Assembly (NCBI GenBank): GCA_025060325.1
Contig: JANXBW010000038.1
Location: 1-35,570, forward strand
Reading direction: 5' to 3'
Length of the DNA stretch: 35,570 nucleotides
Source: Thermoguttaceae bacterium
GTDB taxonomy: Bacteria > Planctomycetota > Planctomycetia > Pirellulales > Thermoguttaceae
Positions 5,480 to 26,419 of this stretch are shown in pieces. Every line of letters begins with the position of its first letter. Within the stretch, counting starts at the first letter, position 1. Under the pieces are notes generated by a model. That model worked only from the letters and a program-made list of their open reading frames with translations. It had not been told where the DNA came from and searched no databases. The position numbers were made by a program, and so were the translations under genes.

Positions 5480-6044
5480 GTTTGGCTCCTACAGTTCACC
5501 AGGACACATCCCGAAAGTTGTTGAATTTACCGAGAGTTGTTCAAAAGGTGTCAACGAGCCCCTTACCGAGGACCTGCCGGTGATTTCCCAACGGCCCGGC
5601 GGGCCGTTTTTGCGCAAGGGAAAGCTCTGGCGGCAGTCAGCGGGTTGCTCAGCTAGCCCGGCTTGAGCGCGCCGTCCCGCGTGCCTGATGTTGGAGCAAG
5701 CGCTGGCCGGAGTGCCGTTTGCAACACGCCGGCAATTGGGCGTTTTGGTCCCTTCGAAAAAGGCCGATGTGCTTGCAAAAAGCAACACGCCACTAGCCTT
5801 CCGGTCCCCGATCCGCTGCGGCACATCCGGTGCGCCAAGGCTACGCCATTGGGGAGTGAACCCTCTCGAACGGCCAAAAGGGGGCATCTATAATTGCCGA
5901 TCTTATTGGCCCCGCTCAAGCTGGCATAAGCCATCGGAACCTGGTCGGACCGACCTTTGACCCCAATTTTTTGGTCAAAGGAACCAAAAATTTTAAATAC
6001 TGGTGTTGCTAGACGCTAAGGGCAGAAAATTTAGGGACTTAGTA
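5480..6044. other. Intergenic region between divergent M42 peptidase and hom
   Basis: Roughly 565 bases hold no convincing gene. The right-hand end (5943-5999) carries two palindromes and a promoter-like pair listed separately; the remainder shows nothing recognisable. Confidence 0.5.
5943..5999 (+). promoter_or_regulatory. Candidate promoter/operator of the hom cluster
   Basis: A 13-nt palindrome (GGTCGG-A-CCGACC, 5943-5955) abuts and overlaps by two bases a perfect 9-bp inverted repeat (CCTTTGACC at 5954-5962, GGTCAAAGG at 5973-5981, 10-nt loop). The right arm overlaps a possible -35 element, TTGGTC (5971-5976), with TAAATA (5994-5999) 17 nt further on. This would start transcription about 40 nt before the hom ATG. 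Palindromes covering a promoter suggest a repressor operator or an RNA hairpin switch; which one is inference. Confidence 0.45.
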
Positions 6045-7346
6045 ATGACCCCGGCGCGAGTGGCTCTGATCGGGTTTGGGACTGTCGGCTCCGGAGTGGC
6101 CCGGCTGCTTCTTGAGCATCGCGATCGAATTTGCCGGAGTGCTGGCAGGCCGGTCGAGCTTGTGCGAATCGTCGACAAGGATCTCACCCGGCCGCGGAAC
6201 GTCCGTGTGCCGGCGGAATTGCTGAGCGATGACGTAGGGGCTGCGATTGAGGATCCTACCGTCCAGATTGTGATTGAACTAATTGGCGGAATTGAGCCGG
6301 CCCGGACCATTGTCCTTAAGGCGCTGCAGGCCGGCAAAGACGTGGTGACGGCTAATAAGGCGCTCCTTGCGGAGCACGGGCCGGAGCTTTTCCGCGAGGC
6401 CCGGCGGTTGGGGCGATCGATCTCTTTCGAGGCCTCGGTGGCCGGGGGCGTGCCGATCATCGCGGCTCTCTCGGAGAGTTTGGTGGCCAACGAGATTCGC
6501 TCTATTCACGCCATCCTGAATGGCACAAGCAACTATATCCTGACCCGAATGGAACAGCGGGGGGTGGGCTACCAGGAGGCATTGGCCGAGGCCCAAAAGC
6601 TCGGATATGCGGAGGCAGATCCGACCCTGGATGTAAGCGGCGCCGACGCGGCTCAGAAGTTGTGCATTTTGGCGGCGCTGGCCTTCGGGGTGCAGGCCGA
6701 CTGGAAGTGTATTCCCCGGCAGGGGATCGACGTGGTTGAGTTGGCCGACCTCCGGTATGCCGGGGAACTTGGTTACACGATTAAGCTGATCGCCTCGGCG
6801 GAAGTTGTCGACGGGAAGTTGGACCTTCGGGTGTGCCCGACATTAGTGCGGCACCGGACCCCTCTGGCGGAGGTTTGGGGGGCCTTCAACGCCGTGGAAG
6901 TGGTGGGGGATGCGGTGGGGCGGGTGTTTTTCCACGGACAAGGGGCCGGCCAAATGCCCACGGCCTCAGCGGTCGTGGCGGATGTCATCGATCTTGTGCT
7001 AGGTCGGGCACCGATTACGTTCCGGATGCTGCCTATAGGCTGTGACCCAGCTCGGGGCGTCCCGCTTGCTGACCCGAAGGAGGCTCGCAGCCGGTTTTAT
7101 CTGCGACTCCGGGTTGTTGATCGTCCGGGGGTCCTTGCGGAAATCGCAGGGATTTTGGGTCGGCTACAGATTTCGATAGCCTCGGTCATTCAGCATGAGC
7201 CTGATCCGCCTGTTGAAGACGGGGTCGTGCCGCTTGTCATCATGACGCATGCTGCCCCGGAGGGTCCAATGCAGCAAGCTATCGAGGCGATTGAAAAGTT
7301 GGCCGTCGTTCGGGACAAGGTCGTTCGCTTCCGGGTGCAGGATTAA
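6045..7346 (+). CDS. hom: Homoserine dehydrogenase with C-terminal ACT domain
   Basis: It reduces aspartate semialdehyde to homoserine with NAD(P)H, the branch point of threonine, methionine and lysine synthesis. The ATG at 6045 is chosen over a GTG at 6003 because AGGGA (6033-6037) is well placed and the protein then opens directly with the Rossmann strand. Of 433 residues, GFGTVGSG (10-17) binds the dinucleotide, VTANKALLAEHG (101-112) is the family signature, and GYAEADPTLDVSGADAAQK (187-205) holds acidic substrate ligands and catalytic K205. A C-terminal ACT domain (RLRVVDRPGVLAEIAGIL, after about residue 350) implies allosteric feedback, probably by threonine. It heads a plus-strand cluster with the mutase-like gene and lysC. 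Confidence 0.96.
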   Translation: MTPARVALIGFGTVGSGVARLLLEHRDRICRSAGRPVELVRIVDKDLTRPRNVRVPAELLSDDVGAAIEDPTVQIVIELIGGIEPARTIVLKALQAGKDVVTANKALLAEHGPELFREARRLGRSISFEASVAGGVPIIAALSESLVANEIRSIHAILNGTSNYILTRMEQRGVGYQEALAEAQKLGYAEADPTLDVSGADAAQKLCILAALAFGVQADWKCIPRQGIDVVELADLRYAGELGYTIKLIASAEVVDGKLDLRVCPTLVRHRTPLAEVWGAFNAVEVVGDAVGRVFFHGQGAGQMPTASAVVADVIDLVLGRAPITFRMLPIGCDPARGVPLADPKEARSRFYLRLRVVDRPGVLAEIAGILGRLQISIASVIQHEPDPPVEDGVVPLVIMTHAAPEGPMQQAIEAIEKLAVVRDKVVRFRVQD

Positions 7347-7416
7347 GCGGGGGATAGCACCGCTGGGGACGCAGGCGGGCTGTTAAGGCGGCGGACCTTG
7401 CAGAGAGTGGCACCAC

Positions 7417-8634
7417 ATGAAATATGCAATCATTATTCCCGACGGCTGCGCGGATGAACCCCAGGAATCGTTGGGGGGAAGGACTCCGCTTGAGGCGGCG
7501 GACACACCCAACATGGATGCAATTGCGCGGGAGGGTGCCGTCGGTTTGGCCAACCATACCCCGCACGATCTGCCGCCGGGATCCGATGTGGCCAACATGA
7601 GCGTCTTTGGCTTTCCGCCACGGGAGTTTTACTGTGGACGTGCGCCGATTGAGGCAGCAGCGCAAGGAATAACACTTGGCCCGGAAGATTGGGCCATCCG
7701 TTGTAACTTGGTGACCATCGAAAACCAGGTCATGCGCGATTTTACGGCGGGGCATATTTCGACGGGGGAAGCTCGGGAACTTTTGGCAACGCTTCAGGAG
7801 CGGGTAGGGCGACCGGAGATCGAGTTCCATGCTGGTGTTAGTTACCGCAATTTAGCTATCTATCGCGGTGAGCCTGGGCGGCGAGTTTTCTCCCCGGAGA
7901 CGCGGACCACACCCCCTCATGACCTGATGGACAAACCGGTTGTGGACGACTATCCCACGGGGCCAGGCAGTGATCTTTTAGTCGAGCTGATGACACTTAG
8001 TTGGGAGCTATTTGCGGAGCATCCGGTCAATGTGGCCCGGCGTCAAGCCGGCAAATTACCAGCCACTAATATTTGGCTATGGGGACTGGGCCAAGCACCA
8101 CGTTTGCCCCGGTTTGAGGAGCGCTATAGTAAACGGGGGGCGATCATTACTGCCGTCGACTTATTGCGGGGTTTGGGGGCACTGCTTGGGCTGGAGCGCA
8201 TTGAGGTTCCCGGCGCGACCGGCTATCTTGACACCAATTACAGGGGCAAGGGGCAGTATGCGGCGGAGGCGCTAGCGCGCGTTGACTTAGTATTTGTCCA
8301 TGTGGAAGCTCCCGACGAGGCTTCCCATCAGGGCGACGTACGGGCTAAGATTGAGGCAATCGAACAAGTGGACCGACACATCGTCGGGCCGGTTCTGGAG
8401 GCTTTGCGGTCTTATGGGCAGTTCCGGATTATGGTCACTCCGGACCATCCCACGTTTTTGCGGTTGAAGACTCACTGTCATGGGAATGTTCCCTGGGCGG
8501 TAACGGGGACGAGTGTTCGGCGGACTGGCGCCGAGGCATTTTCGGAGCGTGCTGCAGCTCGGTCGGGAATTATTTTTAACGACGGCTGGCAATTGATGGG
8601 CGCTTTCTTGACGGAGGGATGTTTTCCGCCGTAA
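7417..8634 (+). CDS. Phosphoglycerate-mutase-like alkaline-phosphatase-superfamily protein; probable homoserine kinase
   Basis: The 405-residue protein belongs to the archaeal-type, cofactor-independent phosphoglycerate mutase group (apgM-like). Visible residues are D9 (IIPDGCAD), the nucleophilic Ser in PGSDVANMSVFG (S56, aligned with the Ser of NSEVGH in iPGM), and late metal ligands in VHVEAPDEASHQGD and TPDHPT. A subset of this family was proposed as an alternative homoserine kinase (TIGR02535) because it clusters with threonine genes in genomes lacking the GHMP-type ThrB. Here it sits 70 nt after hom and just before lysC, which fits that role: homoserine plus ATP to O-phosphohomoserine. 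A glycolytic mutase role remains possible. The ribosome binding site is weak. Confidence 0.88.
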   Translation: MKYAIIIPDGCADEPQESLGGRTPLEAADTPNMDAIAREGAVGLANHTPHDLPPGSDVANMSVFGFPPREFYCGRAPIEAAAQGITLGPEDWAIRCNLVTIENQVMRDFTAGHISTGEARELLATLQERVGRPEIEFHAGVSYRNLAIYRGEPGRRVFSPETRTTPPHDLMDKPVVDDYPTGPGSDLLVELMTLSWELFAEHPVNVARRQAGKLPATNIWLWGLGQAPRLPRFEERYSKRGAIITAVDLLRGLGALLGLERIEVPGATGYLDTNYRGKGQYAAEALARVDLVFVHVEAPDEASHQGDVRAKIEAIEQVDRHIVGPVLEALRSYGQFRIMVTPDHPTFLRLKTHCHGNVPWAVTGTSVRRTGAEAFSERAAARSGIIFNDGWQLMGAFLTEGCFPP

Positions 8635-8927
8635 ACAAATTGTGGATGCAGGCTGCGGAGAGTGTCAGGCATAGTTTATCGACCGGAGGGCTTCGGTTTG
8701 ACTTGGGCTGGTCCGGATTTGGGATGAAGGCGCTTGGGGCCGTCAGCGCAGGTGCCCGGGCCATTGGGCGGATTGCCACTTGGGTTTACATGGCGAATTT
8801 CGGGGGAATCCTTGCCAGAAGTCTCTCGGGGAACGCTGGCGGTTGGCTCTTGCATCGGGCGTTTTGGTCAGCTAGTCAACTGGCGGATGGTCTGAGTAAA
8901 CCAGGGGTCAGCGAAGAGTTGAGGTAG
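8619..8927 (+). CDS. Possible small protein between mutase-like gene and lysC
   Basis: A 102-residue frame starts inside the end of the mutase-like gene (16-nt overlap) and stops seven bases before the lysC ATG, a layout that suggests translational coupling. The product is rich in Gly, Ala, Ser and Trp, with no signal peptide, no cysteine motif and no family that I recognise. A purine-rich GGAGGG touches the first ATG too closely for good initiation, and the next in-frame ATG (8646) has none. It may be real or simply a leader region for lysC. Confidence 0.35.
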   Translation: MFSAVNKLWMQAAESVRHSLSTGGLRFDLGWSGFGMKALGAVSAGARAIGRIATWVYMANFGGILARSLSGNAGGWLLHRAFWSASQLADGLSKPGVSEELR

Positions 8928-8934
8928 GCGAACG

Positions 8935-10704
8935 ATGGCAATTTTGGTGCAGAAGTTTGGTGGCACAAGCGTTGCGGATGCGGAGAAGATCTTGGCCGCT
9001 GCTCGGCGAGCTATTCGAGCGAAAAACCAGGGCTATCAGGTGGTCATGGTGGTTAGCGCCATGGGGCATACCACCGACGAGCTAATCGCCTTGGCCAAGC
9101 AAATTACCGAGCATCCGCCTGCCCGCGAACTGGACATGCTGATGGCAACCGGCGAACAGGTAAGTGTGGCGCTGATGGCGATGGCAATTAATTCGTTAGG
9201 TCATGATGCCATCAGCTTAGCGGGTGCCCAGCTGGGGATTGTTACCGACAGCACGTTCACTAAGGCGCGGATCCGCTCGATCGACGCGGAGCGAATTCGG
9301 CAATTGCTGAATCAGGGGAAGATCGTGATTGCCGCGGGTTTCCAGGGGGTGGATCCGGCCTTTAATATCACAACACTGGGTCGAGGCGGAAGCGACACCA
9401 CGGCCGTTGCGCTGGCGGCCGCTTTGCAAGCAGAGTTTTGCGAAATCTACACAGATGTTGATGGTGTGTACACCACTGATCCGCGGATTGTCCCGGAGGC
9501 CCGGCAGCTTAAACGAATCAGTTATGACGAGATGTTGGAACTGGCAAGCGCTGGGGCGGCGGTCATGCACAATCGGTCTATCGAATTTGCTAAGCGCTTT
9601 GGGGTACCGGTTCACGTCCGCAGTAGTTTCAGCGACCGGCCAGGCACGCTGATCACATCAGAGCCGGAGTCAGTAGCTCGTCCTGTGTGTGGGGCGGCGC
9701 TTGCACGGAATGAGGCGCGAGTGACCGTGCTGGGAGTGCCCGATCGACCGGGGATGGTCTACGCTATCTTTTCCAAGGTGGCCGCTCGCAACGTGGCCAT
9801 GGATATGATCGTGCAAAATATGGCGGCTGACGGACGGGCGGACGTGTCGTTTACTGTGCCGCGGGATGAGCTGGCCCATGCCTTACGCGCTGCCGAAGAG
9901 GCTGCCAGAGAACTCGGCGCCGAGGGCACAAGCTACGAGGACGATGTCGCCAAGGTGTCGATCGTCGGTTTGGGGATGGCTAACCAGCCGGGCGTCGCGC
10001 AAAAGATGTTTAGCGCCGTGGCGGAAAAAGGCATCAACATCGAAATGATTAGCACAAGCCAGATTAAGATCTCCATCGTTGTTGAGCGGCAATACGGCGT
10101 GGAGGCGCTCCGGGCGGTCCACCAAGCTTTTGCGCTTCACGAAGAAGTGCCCGAAGGGGAACTCCCGCCGGCGGGGAAACCACGGCCGATCCTCACGCCG
10201 GAAATCCTGGAGCGACTTCGGGGCATGGAGGATTTGGTGATCGAAGACATTCGGCTAGATGAGACCCAATCGCGGGTGACGCTTGTGGATATTCCGGATC
10301 GGCCAGGCTTGGCGGCGAAGCTTTTCGGCCAAGTGGCTCGGGCCGGGGTCAATGTGGACATGATTGTGCAGAGCGTGGGTCGCGAAGGCCGAGCCAGCAT
10401 TACCTTCACCGTTCCCCGCGGCGATTTAGAGCGATGCCTCCAAGTGGCGCGGGATTTTGCTCGCGAGGTGGGCGGCGCTCCGCCAATCGGCTCCTGGAAT
10501 GTGGCTAAGCTGATGGTGGCTGGCACAGGGATGCGGAGCCATTCCGACGTGGCTCGACGGAGCTTCAAAGCTCTGGCCGAGAAGGGTATCAATGTCGACA
10601 TGATCAGCACAAGTGAGGTGTGCCTCAACATCGTTGTTGACGGCGCAAGGGGACAAGAAGCTTACCAAGCACTCGAGCAGGAATTTGCTGACGTGCGTTT
10701 GTAA
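8935..10704 (+). CDS. lysC: Aspartate kinase with four ACT domains
   Basis: It phosphorylates aspartate, the first step of lysine, threonine and methionine synthesis. The kinase domain (about residues 1-245) shows KFGGTSVAD (7-15), GRGGSDTTAVALA (149-161) and TDVDGVYTTDPR (173-184). At 589 residues it is about 180 longer than the common 400-410 form, because the regulatory ACT pair is duplicated: ACT1 from about 262 (VTVLGVPDRPGM), ACT2 from 340 (KVSIVGLGMANQPG), ACT3 from 447 (RVTLVDIPDRPGL) and ACT4 from 525 (KLMVAGTGM). Four-ACT aspartokinases are known, for example in cyanobacteria. Feedback by lysine and/or threonine is expected. A GAGGTAGG-like box precedes the ATG. Confidence 0.96.
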   Translation: MAILVQKFGGTSVADAEKILAAARRAIRAKNQGYQVVMVVSAMGHTTDELIALAKQITEHPPARELDMLMATGEQVSVALMAMAINSLGHDAISLAGAQLGIVTDSTFTKARIRSIDAERIRQLLNQGKIVIAAGFQGVDPAFNITTLGRGGSDTTAVALAAALQAEFCEIYTDVDGVYTTDPRIVPEARQLKRISYDEMLELASAGAAVMHNRSIEFAKRFGVPVHVRSSFSDRPGTLITSEPESVARPVCGAALARNEARVTVLGVPDRPGMVYAIFSKVAARNVAMDMIVQNMAADGRADVSFTVPRDELAHALRAAEEAARELGAEGTSYEDDVAKVSIVGLGMANQPGVAQKMFSAVAEKGINIEMISTSQIKISIVVERQYGVEALRAVHQAFALHEEVPEGELPPAGKPRPILTPEILERLRGMEDLVIEDIRLDETQSRVTLVDIPDRPGLAAKLFGQVARAGVNVDMIVQSVGREGRASITFTVPRGDLERCLQVARDFAREVGGAPPIGSWNVAKLMVAGTGMRSHSDVARRSFKALAEKGINVDMISTSEVCLNIVVDGARGQEAYQALEQEFADVRL

Positions 10705-11117
10705 CGAGCGCTCCCGGCGCGAAGGACGCATCTCGCGTTGGTGAGGGAGGCGATCCAGGTCCTCGTCGCAAGGTTGCGGCAAATCGGTCGGGATGTGGTC
10801 CCTGACCGGGCTCTTTTTTGGCCCCGGGCGACTATTAGCGCCTGGCGAGCTTAGGCGTTTCCGCATTGAGGGCGACAAGTTGAGTACTACTCACGGCCGG
10901 GGAAATCGGCGCACTCTAGAGCGCGTGTCGTCTCTTGAGCTTGGGAAGTCGCCTGCAGGGGGTGACGGGGCATCTATGCGGCCGTATTTGGCCGGATAAG
11001 CCGCCCGGCGGAATTAATTAATCTTTTGCGGGTGGAGAAAGTGCGCCTTCCTGAAGCAAGATACCGCGGGGGATCCTTTCTAGCCCGCCAGGGCTGGAAG
11101 CAGACGGCCGAGATTGT
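10705..11117. other. Intergenic region between convergent lysC and the DUF151 gene
   Basis: No gene is supported. A stretch around 10808-10828 can pair CCGGG with CCCGG across a T-rich loop but lacks a following T run, so it is not called as a terminator. A CTCTAGAGCGC element at 10914-10924 recurs at 11712-11722. Confidence 0.45.
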
Positions 11118-11528
11118 TTACATTTGGTCACGCAACGCCATCTCGAGCACATCTTCGTTGACGTAAATGGGCAAAGGTGGCTGACAAGTGACTGCGACGG
11201 CAATAGCATCGGAAGGACGCGAGTCAACTTCGACCAATTCCCCTCGGTGACGAATGCGAAGCTTGGCGTAATAAGTGTGCTCGCGCAACTCGGTAATGAT
11301 GACATCCTGCGGTTCGCCGCCTAGGGCTTGGATCACATTCAGCACCAAGTCATGAGTCATCGGTCGGGGCCGTTTGATCCCCTTTACCCGCTGATCGATA
11401 CTGGATGCCTCAAAAAGGCCAATCACAATCGGAAAAGACCGATCGCCGTCCACTTCTTTGAGCCAAATAACTTGTTGATCACTGATCTCCGCAATCAAAA
11501 TGCGGGCAAGCTTCATCAGGACAGGCAT
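11118..11528 (-). CDS. Bifunctional nuclease family (DUF151) protein
   Basis: The 136-residue product matches the DUF151/BFN family from end to end: FPIVIGLFEASSI near residues 32-44, an RPMTHDLVLNVIQALGG segment, and the VDSRPSDAIAVAV signature (about 100-112). Members have been linked to DNA and RNA nuclease activity in plants and are widespread in bacteria, where their role is poorly defined. No signal peptide or membrane segment is seen. GAGGTC precedes the ATG by about six bases. A second in-frame ATG four codons later is possible. The gene appears to be monocistronic. Confidence 0.9.
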   Translation of the reverse strand: MPVLMKLARILIAEISDQQVIWLKEVDGDRSFPIVIGLFEASSIDQRVKGIKRPRPMTHDLVLNVIQALGGEPQDVIITELREHTYYAKLRIRHRGELVEVDSRPSDAIAVAVTCQPPLPIYVNEDVLEMALRDQM

Positions 11529-13212: not shown

Positions 13213-15012
13213 CTATTGACGAATAATGTCCCGCACCGTCATCCCTGATGGGATCATGGGCAGCACGTGTTCTTGATACGGCACGGCAATATCCAGGAGG
13301 TATGGCCCCGGCGCGGCGATAAGTTCCTTGAGGGCATCAATGAGCTCTTCTTTTCGCCAAATGGATCGCGCCTGCCAACCAAAGCCGCGCGCAATGGTGA
13401 CGAAGTCAGGATAACGGTCTTCCGGCGGTAACATCCCGGATCCGCGCCCAATTGCCTCCGGACGATCGACGGGGCCTAAATACGTGTGAGCACGGTTGGA
13501 GGCGTGGAACCGGTCTTCCCATTGCACCACCATCCCCAGGTGTTGATTGTTAAGCAAGATGACCTTCACAGGGATTTTTTCGCAGTAACAGGTCGCCATC
13601 TCTTGGATATTCATCAGCAGGCTGCCATCGCCATCGATGTCGATGACGAGCTTGTCCGGGTGGGCGATTTTGGCCCCAATGGCAGCCGGCAAACCAAACC
13701 CCATGGTTCCAAGGCCCGAGCTGGAAAGCCAAGTTCGGGGATGGCGGAATTTATAAAACTGTGCCGTCCACATCTGATGTTGGCCCACCCCCGTGGTAAT
13801 GATGGTGGGAATGTCTTTTGTCAACTTCCACAGCTCGCTGATCACATGCTGCGGGAGGATCTCATCCCGGGTTTGGTCGTAAGTCAAGGGATCTGCGCGC
13901 CGCCAAGCGTCGATTTGTCTATACCAGTCGGAGAGATCCTGGGGCGGTTCCACAATTTTGTTAAGCTCGGCCAGCGCATACTTGACATCGCTAACCACGG
14001 GGATGTGCGCGGGTTTGACTTTGTTGATTTCCGAGGGATCGATATCGATGTGGACGATCCGGGCATGTTTGGCAAATTCGGAGACCTTACCCGTCACGCG
14101 ATCGTCAAAACGCATTCCTAAAGCGATAAACAGGTCACACTCTGCCACGGCGTAGTTGGCGTAAACGCTGCCGTGCATTCCCAGCATGTCGAGGAAAAGC
14201 GGATGGTCGCCGGGGAAGCCCCCCAGACCCATTGAGGTGCATGTGACGGGAATCCCCGTTCGCTCCACAAGCTCTAAAAGCTCAGGCGATGCCCCGGAGG
14301 CGATCACGCCACCACCGCAGCAAATAACCGGCCGGCGGGAATGGCGAATTGCCTCGGCTATCGCGCGAATTTGCTCGGGCTTAGCCCGCGGTTTTTCCCC
14401 TTTATAACCCGGAAGATCCATTGGGGCTTCAAAGTCTGGGTTGACCTGGGCAAGCTGCACATTCTTGGGTAGGTCGATGAGGACGGGCCCAGGCCGCCCG
14501 GTTGTCGCGACATAGAACGCCTCCCGCATGACCCGGGCAATTGCATTCGGATCGGTGACTAGATAGTGGTGCTTGGTGATACTACGGCAAACTTCGACAA
14601 TTGGCGTCTCCTGGAAAGCGTCCGTCCCGATGACTGGGGTGGGCACCTGGCCGGTGATCGCGATAATCGGCACGCTATCTAACTTGGCGTCGGCCAACGC
14701 GGTCACAAGGTTGGTAGCCCCTGGGCCGCTGGTCGTCATGCAGACGCCAACTTTTCCGGTAGAGCGAGCATATCCCTGGGCAGCGAAACCACCGCCCTGC
14801 TCATGCCGGGGAAGCACGACTCGAATCTTGTCCCGATAGCGAGTGAGGGCCTGGTGGAGGGGCATACTGGCCCCACCCGGGTATGCGAATATCACTTCCA
14901 CTCCGTGCCGAATTAACGATTGGACCACCACTTCTGCCCCGGACATCGGGCCAGGACATCGGGCTTCCAAGGAGCCACTGGGCAACGGAGCTGTCATCGC
15001 AACGGTTGCCAC
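13213..15012 (-). CDS. ilvB: Acetolactate synthase, large (catalytic) subunit
   Basis: It is a thiamine diphosphate enzyme that joins two pyruvates, or pyruvate and 2-oxobutyrate, in valine, leucine and isoleucine synthesis. The 599-residue protein has the conserved catalytic Glu (E71 in [16 protein letters not shown]), the FAD-domain region in the middle ([11 protein letters not shown], about 321-331) and the ThDP/Mg motif GDGS (461-464) ending in NN (488-489). The start is a GTG at 15012, supported by GGAGGG a few bases upstream; the N-terminal 20 residues are variable. No small regulatory subunit (ilvN/ilvH) and no other branched-chain gene is adjacent. Related ThDP enzymes such as glyoxylate carboligase are less likely given these motifs. 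Confidence 0.95.
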
Positions 15013-18469: not shown

Positions 18470-19315
18470 ATGAGGAGCTTTGACAACGTTGCCATTGTGG
18501 GTGTGGGCTTAATTGGTGGTTCGATTGGGCTTGCCCTTAGGCAGCGAAAATTGGCCGGCAAAGTCATCGGCATTGGCCGAAGACAGTCCTCCTTGCGAAT
18601 TGCTCGGCAAATGGGGGCTGTCGACACCACCACCATCAACCTAGCCCGGGGGGTAGCCGAGGCAGAGCTTATCTTCGTCTGCACGCCGGTGGGGCAAATT
18701 CCGGATCATATTCGTCAGGTGGCCGAGCATTGTCCTGTCGGGGCACTGATCACCGACGTAGGGAGCACCAAACAAGTGATCGTGGAAAGCGTCGACGGAA
18801 AGCTACCTCGGCAATGCCGGTTTCTCGGGGGACATCCAATTGCCGGGGGAGAGCGGACCGGGCCGGCTCATGCACGGGCCGATCTCTTTGACGGTCGGGT
18901 AACCGTGTTGACACCCACGAAAAACACATTGGCCGAGGACTTTGACACGTTGTCCCAGCTTTGGTCGCAATTAGGCGCGGTGGTGGTCCGGATGAGTCCT
19001 GAAGAGCATGACAAGGTCCTGGCCATGACTAGCCATTTGCCGCACCTTGTGGCTGCGGCACTGGCAGGGATTCTGCCTGAAGAGTTGTTCCGGTTTGTGG
19101 GTACTGGATTTTTGGACACGACGCGAATTGCGGCTGGCTCCCCGGAATTATGGCGCGACATCTTTGTCCAGAATCGTCAAAACGTCCAGCACTGGCTTGG
19201 TGTTTTGCAGCAGAAGCTAAACCAATTTGGTCAGGCGCTGGCCCGGGGTGATGCCCAAAGCCTGGAAAGCTTATTGGAGGAGGGCAAAAGACACCGCGAT
19301 GCTTTGGCAGGTTGA
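18470..19315 (+). CDS. tyrA: Prephenate dehydrogenase
   Basis: It converts prephenate to 4-hydroxyphenylpyruvate with NAD+ on the way to tyrosine (arogenate use cannot be excluded). The 281-residue protein has the dinucleotide motif GVGLIGGS (11-18), the TDVGSTK segment (95-101), the substrate-site HPIAGGERTGP (122-132) and a helical dimerisation half containing MTSHLPHLVAAALAG. There is no chorismate mutase or ACT domain. Its 3' end overlaps the ATG of the PurL gene by 17 bases, so the two are likely translationally coupled although the pathways differ. Confidence 0.94.
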   Translation: MRSFDNVAIVGVGLIGGSIGLALRQRKLAGKVIGIGRRQSSLRIARQMGAVDTTTINLARGVAEAELIFVCTPVGQIPDHIRQVAEHCPVGALITDVGSTKQVIVESVDGKLPRQCRFLGGHPIAGGERTGPAHARADLFDGRVTVLTPTKNTLAEDFDTLSQLWSQLGAVVVRMSPEEHDKVLAMTSHLPHLVAAALAGILPEELFRFVGTGFLDTTRIAAGSPELWRDIFVQNRQNVQHWLGVLQQKLNQFGQALARGDAQSLESLLEEGKRHRDALAG

Positions 19316-22300
19316 TGTACGACCTTCCCCCCGGCAGCCGGATCTTGTTGGACGGACCCTGACTCAGGATGGCCTTGATCTTGGCCTGCCGGATGGGCTG
19401 AGTATCCGCGCGGCCCGAGGCTTTCTCATCCAGGGGCCTCTTTCCCGTCAACAAATCGAGCAAGCAGTTGGGGAGCTTCTGTGCGACACGGTGGTTGAGG
19501 AAGCGGTGTTTGCGCCGGTTGGCTCCCCGGAGCTGAATGATCTCCCGGCCGGTTTCCATCATTTGGTTTACGTATTGCCAAAGCCGGGGGTTATGGATCC
19601 GGTTGCCCAGAGCACGCAGGCTGCCCTCCGCGATCTGGGCCTTGAGGTAGAAGCGGTGCGGACGTTTCGCAAGTTTTGGATCACTGCGCTTGGGGAGGGG
19701 CAGCTTGAGCAACTTTGTTCGCGCATCTTGGCAAACGAGGCCATCGAGCAGGTAATCATCGGTCCACTCCGAGTTGAGCGATTGGATTTCGGTCGACCTT
19801 ATGAATTTCACCTGGTCCGGGTGCCCATTCGCCAGATGGACGACCAGGCACTTGAAAGGCTTAGTCGCGAGGGGCAACTCTATCTGTCGCTTGTGGAAAT
19901 GCGGGCTATCCGCGATTACTTTTGTCAACTCGGCCGCGATCCGACTGACGTCGAACTGGAGACCCTGGCCCAGACTTGGAGTGAGCATTGTAGCCACAAG
20001 ACACTTGCTGGACCCATCGATTATGAGGATGAAAATGGCCGCCGCGTTTTCCGCAACATGTTGCGGGAGACGATTTTTGCCGCCACGGAGAAAATCCGAC
20101 AAGCGCTGGGCCCGAACGACTGGTGTGTGAGCGTCTTTGAGGACAATGCAGGGATTGTCCGGTTCGATGACGAGTACCATATCGTCTTCAAAGTTGAGAC
20201 GCATAATCACCCCTCGGCTATCGAGCCTTACGGCGGGGCAAGCACAGGGATCGGCGGGGTCATCCGTGATCCCTTGGGCACCGGGCTTGGGGCCAAACCG
20301 ATTTGCAATACCGATGTCTTTTGTTTTGCGCCGCCTGATACCCCGTACGAGTCGCTCCCCCCGGGCGTGCTTCATCCACGGCGGATCATGCGGGGCGTTG
20401 TGGCCGGTGTTCGCGATTACGGCAACCGAATGGGTATCCCCACCGTCGCTGGAGCGATCTTTTTTGATCCCCGCTATTTAGGCAATCCACTTGTTTACTG
20501 CGGCAACGTCGGGCTGCTGCCCCGAGACAAAGCGCGAAAATCCCCTCAGCCGGGTGACTTTATTGTGGTAGTGGGAGGCCGAACCGGCCGCGATGGTATC
20601 CATGGTGCCACATTTAGCTCGGCGGAGCTGACAAGTCACAGCGAGGAAATATCCGGCGGTGCCGTTCAGATCGGCAACCCGATTACCGAAAAGATGCTTG
20701 TTGACATTCTCTTAGTGGCTCGGGATAGGGGACTGTATCGGGGGATTACCGACTGCGGCGCTGGGGGCTTTTCCAGTGCCGTGGGGGAAATGGCCCGCGA
20801 AATTGGGGCAGTGGTGTGGCTCGAGCGGGTCCCGCTGAAGTACGAGGGGCTTTCGTACACGGAAATCTGGATCTCCGAGGCCCAGGAGCGAATGGTTCTG
20901 GCCGTGCCGCCGCAATGCTGGCCGGAGCTGGAAGCCCTGTGCCGATCGGAAGGGGTAGAGGCGACGGTGATTGGCGAATTTCGGCCCACCGGGCGGCTTG
21001 AGCTTTTCTACCAAGGTCATCAGGTGGCACATTTGGAGATGAACTTTCTCCATCGGGGTCGGCCGGCAGTGATGCGGAAGGCTGTTTACCGGCCTCGAGC
21101 TGAAGACGATCGCATCTGCGGGGATCGCTGGCCGCCTGATTACACCGAGGACCTCCGGCGGATCCTTGGCTCGCTTAACGTGGCAAGTAAACACTGGGTG
21201 ATCCGCCAGTATGATCACGAGGTGCAAGGGGGCAGTGTCATCAAGCCTTTGGTGGGCCGGGAGAATGATGGTCCTAGCGATGCGGCGGTACTTCGTCCAC
21301 GCCTCGATTCCTACCGAGGTATTGCCATCGCCTGTGGGATGAACCCATGTTACGGGGATTTTGACACTTACTGGATGGCGGCAAGCGCCATTGACGAGGC
21401 CATACGCAACTGTGTTGCCGTGGGGGCTGATCCCCAGCAAGTAGCTCTCTTGGACAATTTCTGCTGGGGGAACACCGACCGCCCGGAAACACTCGGGTCG
21501 CTTGTGCGAGCGGCCTTGGCCTGTCACGACATGGCGATCGCTTTTGGTACCCCGTTTATTAGCGGAAAGGATAGTCTCAACAACGAATTTCGCCCGGCTG
21601 GCTCGGAAAAGACGATCTGTATTCCCCCCTCGCTTTTAATCAGTGCCCTGGCGATTGTGCCGGACGTCCGCCGCTGTGTCACCATGGATCTGAAGGAGCC
21701 GGGCAACTTCGTGTACCTGGTGGGGGTCACCCGGAACGAGCTTGGTGGCTCCCATTACTGCTTAGTGCAGGGGAAATCGTGCGGACGAGTTCCTCGTGTT
21801 GACGCGCCGCTTGCCGGGCGGATCTTCCGTGCCATGCACCAAGCGATTAGCCGGGGGCTGGTCCGGGCCTGCCATGACCTTAGCGAAGGCGGGTTGGCCG
21901 TGGCTGCTGCCGAAATGGCTTTCGCTGGTGGATTGGGCCTGCGGCTATTTCTGGCCCAGATTCCTAGTGATCTTACCCCTCCGGGGGAGGCCCAGCAGCA
22001 AGTTGAAAAGTGGCGGGCAAGATGGCCAGGTGAGGAGATTCACCCGTTGTCTGCCTGGCCGGCAGCAGTGCCAATCTTGCTCTTTAGCGAATCCAATAGT
22101 AGGTTCTTGGTGGAAGTTCGCCCCAGCGACGCACCTGCCTTTGAGGCCCTTTTTGTCGGCCTGCCCTGCGCCCTTGTGGGAGAGGTGACGGAAACTACCT
22201 ACCTTGAGATTGTCGGCCTCCCGGTACCGTACGGGCAAGGACTGCCGGATGAGGAAGAGCACTTAGGGGCACCGCTTGTTATCCGCGCTTCCCTTGGCGA

Positions 22301-22337
22301 GTTAAAAGCGGCCTGGCAAAAACCCTTGGATTGGTGA
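19299..22337 (+). CDS. purL: Phosphoribosylformylglycinamidine synthase, PurS-PurL fusion
   Basis: It makes FGAM from FGAR, ATP and ammonia (fourth step of purine synthesis). The 1012-residue protein is longer than small PurL (about 730-800) and shorter than the large, glutaminase-bearing form (about 1300). The first 165 residues look like two PurS-like halves, the second with PKPGVMDPVAQSTQAAL and ILANEAIEQVII. The synthase part follows: WSEHCSHKT (H230), VETHNHPSAIEPYGGASTG (299-317), GGRTGRDGIHGATFSS, and a second AIR-synthase-like half with SGKDSLNN and ACHDLSEGGLAVA. The ammonia source would be the separate PurQ encoded 3.3 kb downstream. ATG 19299 is internal to the end of tyrA. Confidence 0.95.
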   Translation: MLWQVDVRPSPRQPDLVGRTLTQDGLDLGLPDGLSIRAARGFLIQGPLSRQQIEQAVGELLCDTVVEEAVFAPVGSPELNDLPAGFHHLVYVLPKPGVMDPVAQSTQAALRDLGLEVEAVRTFRKFWITALGEGQLEQLCSRILANEAIEQVIIGPLRVERLDFGRPYEFHLVRVPIRQMDDQALERLSREGQLYLSLVEMRAIRDYFCQLGRDPTDVELETLAQTWSEHCSHKTLAGPIDYEDENGRRVFRNMLRETIFAATEKIRQALGPNDWCVSVFEDNAGIVRFDDEYHIVFKVETHNHPSAIEPYGGASTGIGGVIRDPLGTGLGAKPICNTDVFCFAPPDTPYESLPPGVLHPRRIMRGVVAGVRDYGNRMGIPTVAGAIFFDPRYLGNPLVYCGNVGLLPRDKARKSPQPGDFIVVVGGRTGRDGIHGATFSSAELTSHSEEISGGAVQIGNPITEKMLVDILLVARDRGLYRGITDCGAGGFSSAVGEMAREIGAVVWLERVPLKYEGLSYTEIWISEAQERMVLAVPPQCWPELEALCRSEGVEATVIGEFRPTGRLELFYQGHQVAHLEMNFLHRGRPAVMRKAVYRPRAEDDRICGDRWPPDYTEDLRRILGSLNVASKHWVIRQYDHEVQGGSVIKPLVGRENDGPSDAAVLRPRLDSYRGIAIACGMNPCYGDFDTYWMAASAIDEAIRNCVAVGADPQQVALLDNFCWGNTDRPETLGSLVRAALACHDMAIAFGTPFISGKDSLNNEFRPAGSEKTICIPPSLLISALAIVPDVRRCVTMDLKEPGNFVYLVGVTRNELGGSHYCLVQGKSCGRVPRVDAPLAGRIFRAMHQAISRGLVRACHDLSEGGLAVAAAEMAFAGGLGLRLFLAQIPSDLTPPGEAQQQVEKWRARWPGEEIHPLSAWPAAVPILLFSESNSRFLVEVRPSDAPAFEALFVGLPCALVGEVTETTYLEIVGLPVPYGQGLPDEEEHLGAPLVIRASLGELKAAWQKPLDW

Positions 22338-22366
22338 TCGTCAACGCGTGGAAGAGGAAACTACTC

Positions 22367-24334
22367 ATGAGAGGCGTTAATGTGCGCTCGGCGGTGCTGA
22401 TCCTATTCTTTTTGGGCGTGTTGGGTATCACTTCATCGTCGATCCATGCCCAGGATGTATCGGTGTGGGTTGTAGATCCGCATGTAAAAGTTTTTCGTGA
22501 TACAACTCCGCCGGCGGGTGGTGATCTTCCTGGTCAAATCCACCTGAAGGCGGCCCGGAACGAGTTTGAGCCAGCCCAGGTTGCGGTTCGATCGCGGCAG
22601 GAGCTTAAAGGGTTGCGGGTTGAGTGGGGGGCCTTGCAGCACGAAAGTGGTGCGACGATTCCCAGCCAGTGTCTGACGTGGATTTTTGTGGGCTTCATCC
22701 CTATGCCCAAGAACACTCCGGGTTCTGAGGGCATTCGCATTTGCCAAGCACCGTGCGATGTTCCCGATCCCCTTCTTGCAGATCGTGTGATGGATCTCCC
22801 TCCCGAGCGGACCCAACCCATTTGGTTGACCGTCCGAGTTCCGGCCGAGGCAGCCGCCGGGAAATATCAAGGCGAAATACGCCTTGTGGCAGACAATTGG
22901 CAAGCGAGCGTGCCTGTGGTTCTAGAGGTCTTCGATTTTGTCCTCCCGAGTGATCGCCATCTTTGGATGACCAATTGGTTCAATCTCAACAACATTGCCC
23001 GGGCACATAATGTTGACATGTGGTCGGAAGCCTTTTGGGAGATCCTGGCACGCTACGCGCGGAATATGGCCGAGCATCGCCAAAACGTGGTCCTTGTGCC
23101 TTGGACGCTTGTTGACATTTATCGGGAGGCTGATGGCACACTCTCCTTCGACTTTGCCCGATTTGATCGGTACGTTCGACTGTTTATGGATGCCGGGGTG
23201 GCTGGCCAGCTAGAAATCAGCCACGTTGGCCGAGGGGAAAAGGGTTGGGGCACCACGTTCGTTTTGAACGGAGTGACGGCGGTAGACCGCCAAAGCAATA
23301 AGCGGATTCGGCTTTCGCCGGAAGAAGGATTGCGTCCGCTTTTAAAAGCGCTTGAAGAGCATTTGGACAAGCAAGGTTGGCTAAAGCGGAGCATGATCCA
23401 CGTCGCCGACGAGCCGATTCTGACCAATTTGGATTCCTGGAAAAAAGCCTCGGCTTTTGTTCGCGAAGCTGCGCCGAGAATCCGGCGGATTGAGGCCATA
23501 GAAACGATTGGCCTGGAGGGCTATCTGGAAGTTTGGGTGCCCCAGCTTAGCCACTTCGAGCGGTGGCGACAGGCGTATGAAGCTAGGCGCAACCAGGGTG
23601 AGTTTTGGTACTATATTTGCGTCAACCCCCACGGGAGCGTGTATCCGAATCGTTTTCTGGACTATCCCCTTTCTGCGGTCCGGGTGCTCCATTGGATAAA
23701 CTTCTCGGAAAAGCTCCGTGGCTATTTGCACTGGGGTTGGAATTTCTGGGGTGAAAACCCCTTCGGTCCGCCGACCGACCGGTTGCCGCCTGGCGATACT
23801 CACATCGTCTATCCTGGTCCCGACGGCCCGCTTAACTCGCTACGATGGGAAATCCAGCGGGAAAGTGTGGAGGATTTCGAATACTTGCACCTACTTGCCG
23901 TGGAGCTTACCCGGCTGAAAGAGCAGCAAGGCGAAAAGGCTGCCTGGTTTGATCCGTGCCGTTACCCCATGGAACTTGCGCGTAAAGTGGTGCCGTCGAT
24001 CGTGACTTTCGAGCGAGATCCCAAGCGGATCATGAGGGTTCGCGAGGAGCTAGCGGAGGCCATTGTGGCTGCCCGGCAAAGTCCGCTCCTTCTCGTTCAG
24101 ACCGAGCCCTCTGCAGACACCGTGCTTTGGGATGGCCCGGTAGTTGTGGAGTTATTCGGGTTGACCGAGCCAGGGGCCGAGGTTGTTGTCAACGGCCGGA
24201 AAGTTGCTCTCCGCGAGGATGGCACGTTCCAGGTGCGGCTATCTCCGTCTCGTCCAGCCGGCGAGGTTGTCGTCCAGGTGCGGAAAGACGGCCAGAGCAA
24301 GACCTTGCGGAAACAATTCGTCATTAAGCCATAA
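22367..24334 (+). CDS. Exported DUF4091 (GH123-like) glycoside hydrolase-type protein
   Basis: The product (655 residues) has a signal peptide (hydrophobic stretch 8-25, cleavage near SIHAQ). It has an N-terminal beta-sandwich-like region (about 30-190), then a TIM-barrel region with an adjacent acidic pair D348-E349 (IHVADEP), the arrangement used by GH123 beta-N-acetylgalactosaminidases. A C-terminal Ig-like domain (about 580-655, VELFGLTEPGAEVVVNGR) follows. It is probably periplasmic or outer-surface and acts on amino-sugar glycans; the substrate is an inference. The ATG at 22367 (with GAGGAA upstream) is preferred to a TTG overlapping the purL stop. It interrupts the purL-purQ order. Confidence 0.88.
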   Translation: MRGVNVRSAVLILFFLGVLGITSSSIHAQDVSVWVVDPHVKVFRDTTPPAGGDLPGQIHLKAARNEFEPAQVAVRSRQELKGLRVEWGALQHESGATIPSQCLTWIFVGFIPMPKNTPGSEGIRICQAPCDVPDPLLADRVMDLPPERTQPIWLTVRVPAEAAAGKYQGEIRLVADNWQASVPVVLEVFDFVLPSDRHLWMTNWFNLNNIARAHNVDMWSEAFWEILARYARNMAEHRQNVVLVPWTLVDIYREADGTLSFDFARFDRYVRLFMDAGVAGQLEISHVGRGEKGWGTTFVLNGVTAVDRQSNKRIRLSPEEGLRPLLKALEEHLDKQGWLKRSMIHVADEPILTNLDSWKKASAFVREAAPRIRRIEAIETIGLEGYLEVWVPQLSHFERWRQAYEARRNQGEFWYYICVNPHGSVYPNRFLDYPLSAVRVLHWINFSEKLRGYLHWGWNFWGENPFGPPTDRLPPGDTHIVYPGPDGPLNSLRWEIQRESVEDFEYLHLLAVELTRLKEQQGEKAAWFDPCRYPMELARKVVPSIVTFERDPKRIMRVREELAEAIVAARQSPLLLVQTEPSADTVLWDGPVVVELFGLTEPGAEVVVNGRKVALREDGTFQVRLSPSRPAGEVVVQVRKDGQSKTLRKQFVIKP

Positions 24335-24440
24335 AAAAGCTCGGGTGGGTCAACAATCCCGGGTTAGGCTTTGGGTCGACTGGGGTAGGGCTGAGGCCCC
24401 AAAACCAAGCGGCTGCGATATTTTTCCTGGATAACCAGCA

Positions 24441-25517
24441 ATGACGAATTTCTCCGTGAACCGTCGCCAGGCCGTCCGCTGTCTGGCGGCTTCCCCTGCA
24501 TTGAGCTTACTAAAACCCTTGTGTACTCAAGAGGCGGAGGCCTCTGGAAGGCCGGAAGCCTTGGGGGTTAGGCTCCAAGATGAGCCCGAGCCGGCTGCAC
24601 AGCGCGGCGCTGCCCTCCCGACCCAAAGCGCCGCTGATGAGAAAACTAAGACCAAAAACCGGCGGTTTCGAACGGCCCTTGTGCCCTCGGCTGTAGGCAT
24701 CCGGCTTAGTCAACAGGAGGCGATCGCCGCTGCGCGTCAATACGGCTTTGAGGCTGTAGAGCCCCAGATCGATTATCTGGCGCGGCTATCCGATGACGAG
24801 CTTGCGGTCCTTCGGGAGCAGATGGCTCAGGCCGGCTTAGTGTGGTCCGCAGCAGGTCTACCTGTTGACTTCCGCGGTGCTGAGGAACGGTTTGCCGAAG
24901 GTCTTAAGCGCCTGCCGGACTATGCCCGGCAGCTCAGACGGATAGGCGTGGATCGCGTAGGGACTTATATCCAGCCGGTTCACCGCCAGCTCACCTACCT
25001 GGAGAACTTCCGCCTTCATGTGGCGCGATTCCGGGCAATGGCCGAGGTTTTGGGCGAATTCGGTATTCGGCTTGGGATTGAGTACGTGGGTCCCAAACGG
25101 TCGTGGACGGCGGGGCGCTACCCTTTTATCCACACCTTAAAAGAATTGCGGGAACTTATCGAGGCAATTGCCAATCCGGCCGTGGGGTTTACGCTCGACA
25201 GCTGGCATTGGTATACGGCGGGGGAAACCACCGCGGATATCCTGGCCTTGCCCGGCAAAGACGTGCTTATTGTCCACTTGAATGACGCTCCGGCTGGCAT
25301 CCCAGTTGACGAGCAGGTTGACTCCGTTCGCGAGCTGCCTCTTGCCACTGGGGTGATTGATATGAAGGGCTTTTTGGGCGCACTGGTGGAAATTGGCTTT
25401 GAGGGCCCCGCTTATATCGAGCCATTTAAGGCCGAGCTACGCCGACTGCCAACGGAAAAGGCTCTTGCGCTGGTCGCCGAGTCGATGAAAAAATGTATAG
25501 CTCTCATTGAGTCGTAA
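24441..25517 (+). CDS. Exported sugar phosphate isomerase/epimerase-like TIM barrel protein
   Basis: The 358-residue protein starts with a Tat-like region (NRRQAVRCLAASPA, residues 7-20), followed by a low-complexity linker to about residue 75. The rest is a xylose-isomerase-like (AP endonuclease family 2) barrel: GFEAVEPQ (102-109), IEYVGPK with E214, LDSWHW with D253 and H256, HLNDAP with H279, and IEPF with E327, the usual divalent-metal ligands. Such proteins isomerise or epimerise sugars, inositols or keto acids; the substrate is unknown. Planctomycetes carry many exported versions. It lies between the DUF4091 gene and purQ on the same strand. Confidence 0.87.
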   Translation: MTNFSVNRRQAVRCLAASPALSLLKPLCTQEAEASGRPEALGVRLQDEPEPAAQRGAALPTQSAADEKTKTKNRRFRTALVPSAVGIRLSQQEAIAAARQYGFEAVEPQIDYLARLSDDELAVLREQMAQAGLVWSAAGLPVDFRGAEERFAEGLKRLPDYARQLRRIGVDRVGTYIQPVHRQLTYLENFRLHVARFRAMAEVLGEFGIRLGIEYVGPKRSWTAGRYPFIHTLKELRELIEAIANPAVGFTLDSWHWYTAGETTADILALPGKDVLIVHLNDAPAGIPVDEQVDSVRELPLATGVIDMKGFLGALVEIGFEGPAYIEPFKAELRRLPTEKALALVAESMKKCIALIES

Positions 25518-25597
25518 CCAAGGCTGTGGGTTTGTGTTTGCCGACCAGTTCCTTCAGGGAGCAAGGAAGGCAGCAAACTTTTCGATCGGGTTGTCCT

Positions 25598-26419
25598 ATG
25601 GGAACAAAGCCACGGGTTTTAGTGCTTCGGGCACCGGGAACCAATTGCGACGTGGAGACGGCCTACGCCTTCGAGGTAGCTGGGGCCGTTGCGGAAAGAG
25701 TGCATGTCGCCCGGCTGCTTGAATCCCCTCAACTTCTCCGGAATTACCAGATCCTCTGTATTCCCGGCGGATTTAGTTACGGGGACGATATAGCCGCGGG
25801 CAGAATCCTGGCTACTCAGCTGCGGGTTCACTTGGGCGAGGTCCTTGCGGAATTTTGCAGCCGGGACCGGTTGGTGCTGGGGATTTGTAACGGCTTTCAG
25901 GTGTTGTTAAAAGCGGGCTTGCTCGTTGCGCCTCGCCCGGAGGCAGGGATTCCCGCGACGTTGACCTGGAATGACACCGGCCGATTTGAGGACCGGTGGG
26001 TGTACCTTCGCGTGGTGGGGGAAAAGTGCGTGTTCCTAAGGGGTATTGACCGGATGTATCTTCCCGTGGCGCATGCCGAAGGGAAATTTCTCTGCCGCGA
26101 TGAGGCGACGCTCCGCCAACTGGAAGCTGCGGGCCAGCTGGTCCTCCGGTATGCTTTGCCGCCCTGTCGACAGGGATTAGGCGGCGGTTCCCTGGTCGCA
26201 AATCAAACGGGGCTAATTCCTTTTCCTTACAACCCCAACGGCTCTCAAGGGAATGTGGCCGGGATGTGTGATGAGACTGGGCGAATTTTCGGCCTTATGC
26301 CCCACCCGGAGCGCCACATCGATCCCACCCATCACCCTCGCTGGACACGCGGGGAAGCTGGGCCGGAAGGAGATGGGCTGCGGATCTTTCGAAATGCCGT
26401 GGAGTACTTCGCCGGGTAG
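25598..26419 (+). CDS. purQ: Phosphoribosylformylglycinamidine synthase, glutaminase subunit
   Basis: It is a class I glutamine amidotransferase that supplies ammonia to PurL. Of 273 residues, RAPGTNCD (11-18), IPGGFSYGDDIAAGR (55-69), the nucleophile C97 (GICNGFQ) and H236/E238 (MPHPERH) complete the triad. At 273 residues it is somewhat longer than the roughly 225-residue Bacillus type, and nearer the long PurQ forms that pair with large PurL proteins. The ATG at 25598 starts directly at the family N-terminus; the ribosome binding site is weak. The gene is followed by a strong terminator. Confidence 0.95.
   Translation: MGTKPRVLVLRAPGTNCDVETAYAFEVAGAVAERVHVARLLESPQLLRNYQILCIPGGFSYGDDIAAGRILATQLRVHLGEVLAEFCSRDRLVLGICNGFQVLLKAGLLVAPRPEAGIPATLTWNDTGRFEDRWVYLRVVGEKCVFLRGIDRMYLPVAHAEGKFLCRDEATLRQLEAAGQLVLRYALPPCRQGLGGGSLVANQTGLIPFPYNPNGSQGNVAGMCDETGRIFGLMPHPERHIDPTHHPRWTRGEAGPEGDGLRIFRNAVEYFAG

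Follow-up and report, generated by a model that had tools for sequence, protein, structure and literature searches.

A phosphoglycerate mutase-like protein as the probable homoserine-phosphorylating enzyme of threonine synthesis in a Thermoguttaceae bacterium

What does a phosphoglycerate mutase-like protein do in the middle of a threonine gene group? The question is raised by a stretch of 35,570 nucleotides from a Thermoguttaceae bacterium (assembly GCA_025060325.1, contig JANXBW010000038.1; hereafter the window), in which three recognised genes follow one another on the forward strand: homoserine dehydrogenase (hom, 6003–7346; NF004976, 503.9 bits against a cut-off of 205, with an in-frame ATG at 6045 as a possible true start), an apgM-like reading frame of 405 residues with an ATG start (thrB2, 7417–8634) and an aspartate kinase of 589 residues (8935–10704; NF005656, 735.3 bits, cut-off 657). 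The gaps are 70 bp between hom and thrB2 and 300 bp between thrB2 and the aspartate kinase gene. The original prediction had placed the apgM-like gene directly between the other two, and this holds for recognised genes, a restriction made because a small forward-strand ORF of 102 residues (8619–8927) sits in the second gap. This ORF has no NCBIfam match, overlaps the 3′ end of thrB2, fills the space up to the aspartate kinase gene and may be a chance ORF. A stem-loop and T run 3′ of the aspartate kinase gene (10784–10809, forward strand) resembles a terminator weakly, by consensus match only; 8 terminator-like sites were counted in 5800–11200 against a shuffle mean of 6.0, and a promoter scan gave 1 site against 1.8 in shuffles. 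An Rfam scan returned two tRNAs and nothing else, and therefore no known threonine leader or riboswitch. Elsewhere in the window, the large subunit of acetolactate synthase (13213–15012; TIGR00118, 721.1 bits) is encoded on the opposite strand, some 2.5 kb away from the operon, and a forward-strand segment at 22331–25517, encoding glycoside hydrolase 123 family and xylose-isomerase-like TIM-barrel proteins, is flanked by parts of FGAM synthase (a PurS/PurL-like protein at 19227–22337 and a GATase_5 protein at 25526–26419).

The product of thrB2 is an apgM-like protein of the alkaline-phosphatase (metalloenzyme) superfamily and a proposed homoserine kinase. It matches TIGR02535, 'proposed homoserine kinase', with 535.5 bits over a cut-off of 446.3, so that its predicted assignment to this family, put forward as a replacement of ThrB, is borne out. 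NF003242/PRK04200, a model that NCBIfam applies to the same cluster under the label 'cofactor-independent phosphoglycerate mutase', scores 544.2 bits (cut-off 426), and the apgM subfamily model TIGR00306, which spans the ThrB2 clade too, scores 497.3 bits (cut-off 320). The protein carries the Pfam domains PF10143 and PF01676, and it is not a GHMP-type homoserine kinase: TIGR00191, the model for GHMP ThrB, is absent among its seven NCBIfam matches at E ≤ 0.001. One apgM relative, the phosphonoformyl transferase PhpG (NF038358), takes its name from a transfer distinct from the mutase reaction; the window protein reaches 214.1 bits against a PhpG cut-off of 545 and is therefore not a member. Its AlphaFold2 model (mean pLDDT 94.9) superposes on the Pyrococcus structure 2zkt_B with a Z-score of 45.0 and 2.3 Å over 368 residues, a predicted fold in common with the archaeal-type apgM mutases (2zkt, 3kd8, 3idd) over that length.

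The idea that such proteins replace ThrB is already in print (PMC7311316, PMC9026213), and the present locus therefore adds one more instance, and comparative evidence, to an existing proposal; new here are the phylum-wide exclusion of ThrB, the five-residue conversion of the active site and a degenerate side clade. As related in PMC7311316, the TIGRFAM curators proposed that TIGR02535 proteins replace ThrB with a donor such as PEP. Of 148 diverse prokaryotes able to grow when no amino acids are supplied, 29 had homoserine kinase as a low-confidence step, and 15 of these carry TIGR02535 (PMC7311316). The same source describes the Bacteroides protein BT2402 as required in minimal medium lacking threonine, and reports that it failed to complement an E. 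coli thrB mutant. The name ThrB2 is used in PMC9026213, where the protein is recorded in 300 gut genomes, 278 of them without thrB. Later biochemical proof of the ThrB2 reaction was not recognised among titles and abstract openings in the open-licence literature. The window protein resembles BT2402 of Bacteroides thetaiotaomicron in its TIGR02535 membership, its place beside threonine-pathway genes and its occurrence where ThrB is missing (PMC7311316, PMC9026213). Gene order differs: most Bacteroidetes are described as carrying thrB2 with thrC and a fused asd-hom (PMC9026213), whereas in the source genome thrB2 follows hom and precedes the aspartate kinase gene, ThrC being encoded elsewhere.

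We searched the source assembly (4.78 Mb in 89 contigs, 95.57% complete) for other enzymes of the same step. No GHMP ThrB scored over the TIGR00191 cut-off of 168.25 in this 95.57% complete genome; the two weak matches, at 33.6 and 21.8 bits, are respectively IspE (TIGR00154, 165.1 bits, cut-off 138.7) and a galactokinase-like protein, and TIGR00938, the model for APH-type ThrB, gave no match at E ≤ 0.001. A canonical ThrB elsewhere in the source genome, the alternative that the original prediction had singled out for checking, was thus looked for with both models and not found. Threonine synthase, ThrC, is present (212.9 bits, cut-off 167.1), and the pathway therefore has its last step without a recognised kinase before it.

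A second check, for another phosphoglycerate mutase, turned up an apgM-type protein on contig 40 that scores 606.6 bits against PRK04135 (cut-off 468) and retains the DRRAGR and DHSTP motifs and the Lys. Since no gpmI- or gpmA-type mutase in the source genome scores over cut-off, this PRK04135-type protein is likely, judging from sequence, the glycolytic mutase. At this locus (L205, 4554–7158) its gene lies 3′ of a gene of the methionine gamma-lyase/cystathionine gamma-synthase family on the same strand. The metal ligand equivalent to His304 is Glu in this protein and in three paralogs of family f37 (loci L105–L107).

The window protein keeps the catalytic residues of its mutase relatives. Its nucleophile S56 and metal ligands D9, D300, H304, D343, H344 and H353 are retained in 41 of 41 aligned TIGR02535 members, and the same seven residues are found in 80 of 80 named loci, which are the best 80 of at least 550 relatives, nearly all labelled planctomycete (some may be of the same species as members of the 41-member set). 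The serine and metal ligands are common to ThrB2 and the archaeal-type apgM mutases. In the C. elegans enzyme the two metal sites are given as Asp, Asp, His and His, Ser, Asp, His (PMC5382265), and in BT2402 the zinc sites are described as conserved and a calcium site as unconserved (PMC9765024). A profile alignment to E. coli GpmM spans 93 columns of the C-terminal part only, and over these the C-terminal ligands of ThrB2 match. The conserved metal and serine residues of the original prediction are therefore present, and its view that an active phosphotransfer enzyme is plausible is upheld as far as the alignment goes.

What sets ThrB2 apart from the mutases lies outside these seven residues. 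Five positions (109, 110, 113, 222 and 297) carry Arg or Lys in each of the 11 mutase-type proteins and in none of the 41 ThrB2 members; the comparison group is small, since of its 11 rows just two are solved structures and some are near-duplicates of one another, and 7 degenerate ThrB2 relatives were left out of it. In the archaeal-type apgM mutases these are Arg109, Arg110, Arg113, Arg222 and Lys297, all lacking in ThrB2, and in the window protein all five (the DRRAGR motif, R222 and K297) are absent. In their place the 41 members have Phe, His or Tyr at 109, Thr, Ser, Cys or Ala at 110, and His, Gln, Ala, Ser or Gly, mostly His, at 113, while 222 is Trp and 297 is Glu throughout. The best 80 of at least 550 relatives give a similar picture, with F/H/Y at 109, T/S/N at 110, H/Q/G at 113, W222 in 80/80 and, by alignment, E297 in 80/80 (one, L126, carries Glu297 but Val later in the motif). 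Among the newly fixed residues of ThrB2 are W220, W222, E297 and E301 (41/41 members) and D248 (39/41), of which E297 lies three residues before the metal ligand D300; together with the separate clade that ThrB2 forms, these five residues set it against the apgM mutases. The Arg/Lys positions of the mutases probably serve in substrate binding, and the lost arginines may be counterparts of the substrate-binding arginines of GpmM. The changed positions would then line the acceptor site, suggesting that an acidic phosphate-ester site has been remade in ThrB2 as an amino-acid site. E297, W222 and the lost arginines are direct targets for mutagenesis, and the planctomycete ThrB2 proteins offer assay alternatives to BT2402.

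These observations bear on the simplest alternative, in which the protein would be an ordinary cofactor-independent glycolytic phosphoglycerate mutase that stands in the operon by chance. The fold match to 2zkt_B, the TIGR00306 score, the name of NF003242 and the retention of Ser56 and the metal ligands all agree with it. It must however accommodate a second, PRK04135-type mutase in the source genome and the loss, in 41/41 ThrB2 proteins, of five Arg/Lys residues held by 11/11 mutase-type relatives, and it gives no reason for the adjacency to hom or for the ThrB exclusion described below. We therefore consider a plain mutase improbable and reject it as the main explanation, because a second mutase is present and the active-site residues are changed.

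We instead propose that ThrB2 is very probably, on the evidence of sequence and gene context, a homoserine-phosphorylating enzyme of the threonine pathway that stands in place of a GHMP-type ThrB. In such an enzyme two divalent metals would activate Ser56, as in the mutase relatives; a donor would phosphorylate the serine, and the resulting phosphoserine would hand the group on to an acceptor hydroxyl. The remade Arg/Lys set, with the arginines at 109, 110, 113 and 222 gone and Lys297 replaced by Glu, would suit an acceptor that bears an amino group, for which homoserine is the probable candidate; the product, O-phosphohomoserine, would be the substrate of threonine synthase. As to the donor, we tentatively suggest, at somewhat less than even likelihood, that ThrB2 is a non-ATP homoserine phosphotransferase drawing on PEP or phosphoglycerate, which evolved from a mutase by loss of the five Arg/Lys residues and gain of E297, E301 and D248. 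If so, threonine output would be tied to lower glycolysis, and a glycolytic donor could help to explain the failure of BT2402 in the E. coli thrB mutant.

If ThrB2 does the work of ThrB, how are the two distributed? GHMP ThrB, which belongs to a protein family unrelated to ThrB2, is proposed to carry out the same step, and we searched for both families in 294 genomes of the phylum of the source organism. TIGR02535 was over cut-off in 124 genomes and GHMP ThrB in 66, and no genome had both, against 27.8 expected if the two were independent, an expectation that overstates independence because the sampled genomes are related. For the same reason the Fisher value of 2e-19 is not a true probability, and the fairer figure is the count of families, made by hand from their labels: TIGR02535 occurs in 24 families and GHMP ThrB in 22, with none shared. 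Adding near-cut-off genomes picked by eye raises the two sets to 131 and 82 and leaves the overlap at 0. APH-type ThrB was over cut-off in 0 of the 294 genomes. ThrC matches at E ≤ 1e-40 were found in 122 of the 124 TIGR02535 genomes, 56 of the 66 ThrB genomes and 38 of the 104 genomes with neither. The finding that the source genome lacks a canonical thrB over cut-off thus extends to the 123 other TIGR02535 genomes of the sample, and the non-orthologous displacement in threonine synthesis that had been predicted is supported by the lack of ThrB, the presence of ThrC and the exclusion between the two families.

The ThrB2 account leaves part of the phylum aside. Once 20 hand-picked near-cut-off genomes are left out of the 104, 22 of the other 84 have a strong ThrC match and no TIGR02535, GHMP ThrB or APH-type ThrB over cut-off (G003, G021, G029, G214 and G262 are among them). 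Of the 22, at least G291 carries a contig-terminal TIGR02535 fragment, and at least G034 and G076 carry degenerate ThrB2 relatives; the remainder are not covered by the ThrB2 account.

Gene order at related loci adds a second line of comparison. Each family contributed from one to a few of the 41 TIGR02535 loci compared, the window among them. Within about 6 kb, 22 of these loci have hom and 11 have aspartate kinase; the other 19 show no hom over that distance, some of them being cut by contig ends. Among the best 80 of at least 550 relatives, hom is present in 48 and, in 44, lies upstream on the same strand with at most 400 bp between aligned ends, while aspartate kinase is present in 41 and within 400 bp in 34; in this set of 80, every hom is upstream, every aspartate kinase downstream and all are on the same strand. 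GHMP ThrB shares with ThrB2 comparable hom operons in other genomes of the phylum: within about 6 kb, 13 of 20 GHMP thrB loci have hom, 11 have aspartate kinase and 10 have thrC, and four of these loci (L091, L093, L097 and L098) read hom – thrC – thrB – aspartate kinase. As a control we took 20 loci of mutase-type or below-cut-off paralogs, none of which showed hom, aspartate kinase or thrC at E ≤ 1e-6; contig ends truncate several of these loci, and since the search used proteins of the window as queries, distant forms could have escaped it.

The same neighbours weigh against a role for ThrB2 on another hydroxy amino acid, or an indirect role in threonine synthesis. Dehre_1608 of Dehalobacter restrictus, a TIGR02535 member, has been proposed as an L-threonine kinase of corrinoid synthesis, 'CbiU' (PMC4285132), so that the substrate of the family may vary, and in PMC7311316 the GapMind authors allow that BT2402 has 'another role in threonine synthesis'. 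Like the window protein, Dehre_1608 has a TIGR02535 domain and is proposed to act on a hydroxy amino acid (PMC4285132); unlike thrB2 here, it is encoded in a corrinoid operon. With hom and aspartate kinase as neighbours, ThrC present without a recognised ThrB, and an exclusion that is with ThrB, we regard such a role as unlikely. Least likely is that some unrecognised kinase phosphorylates homoserine with ThrB2 as an accessory, since, although the kinase-gap genomes (22 of 294) indicate that such kinases may exist in the phylum, the source genome offers at E ≤ 0.001 only IspE and a galactokinase-like protein for TIGR00191 and nothing for TIGR00938, and the exclusion of ThrB would be left unexplained.

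A tree of 64 rows separates the 11 mutase-type proteins, with support 100/100, from every ThrB2 and degenerate row. Inside the ThrB2 side lies a group of at least 10 degenerate proteins, in each of which three or more of the seven residues for catalysis or metal binding are missing. Two of them sit on long branches, and 98% of 200 bootstrap trees give the group a single origin. The set was drawn from below-cut-off TIGR02535 rows among the matches listed, where it covers loci L112–L115 and L117–L122, genomes G105, G107, G063, G087, G035, G279, G223, G076, G034 and G050, and families f25, f36, f46, f47 and f67. GHMP ThrB is over cut-off in 4 of these 10 genomes (G035, G107, G223 and G279). The degenerate clade may consist of ThrB2 descendants that have gone out of use or moved to another use. 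At two of its loci the next large ORF downstream encodes DnaA (L220, in G223) and a class I tRNA synthetase with a valyl-type C-terminal arm (L221, in G076).
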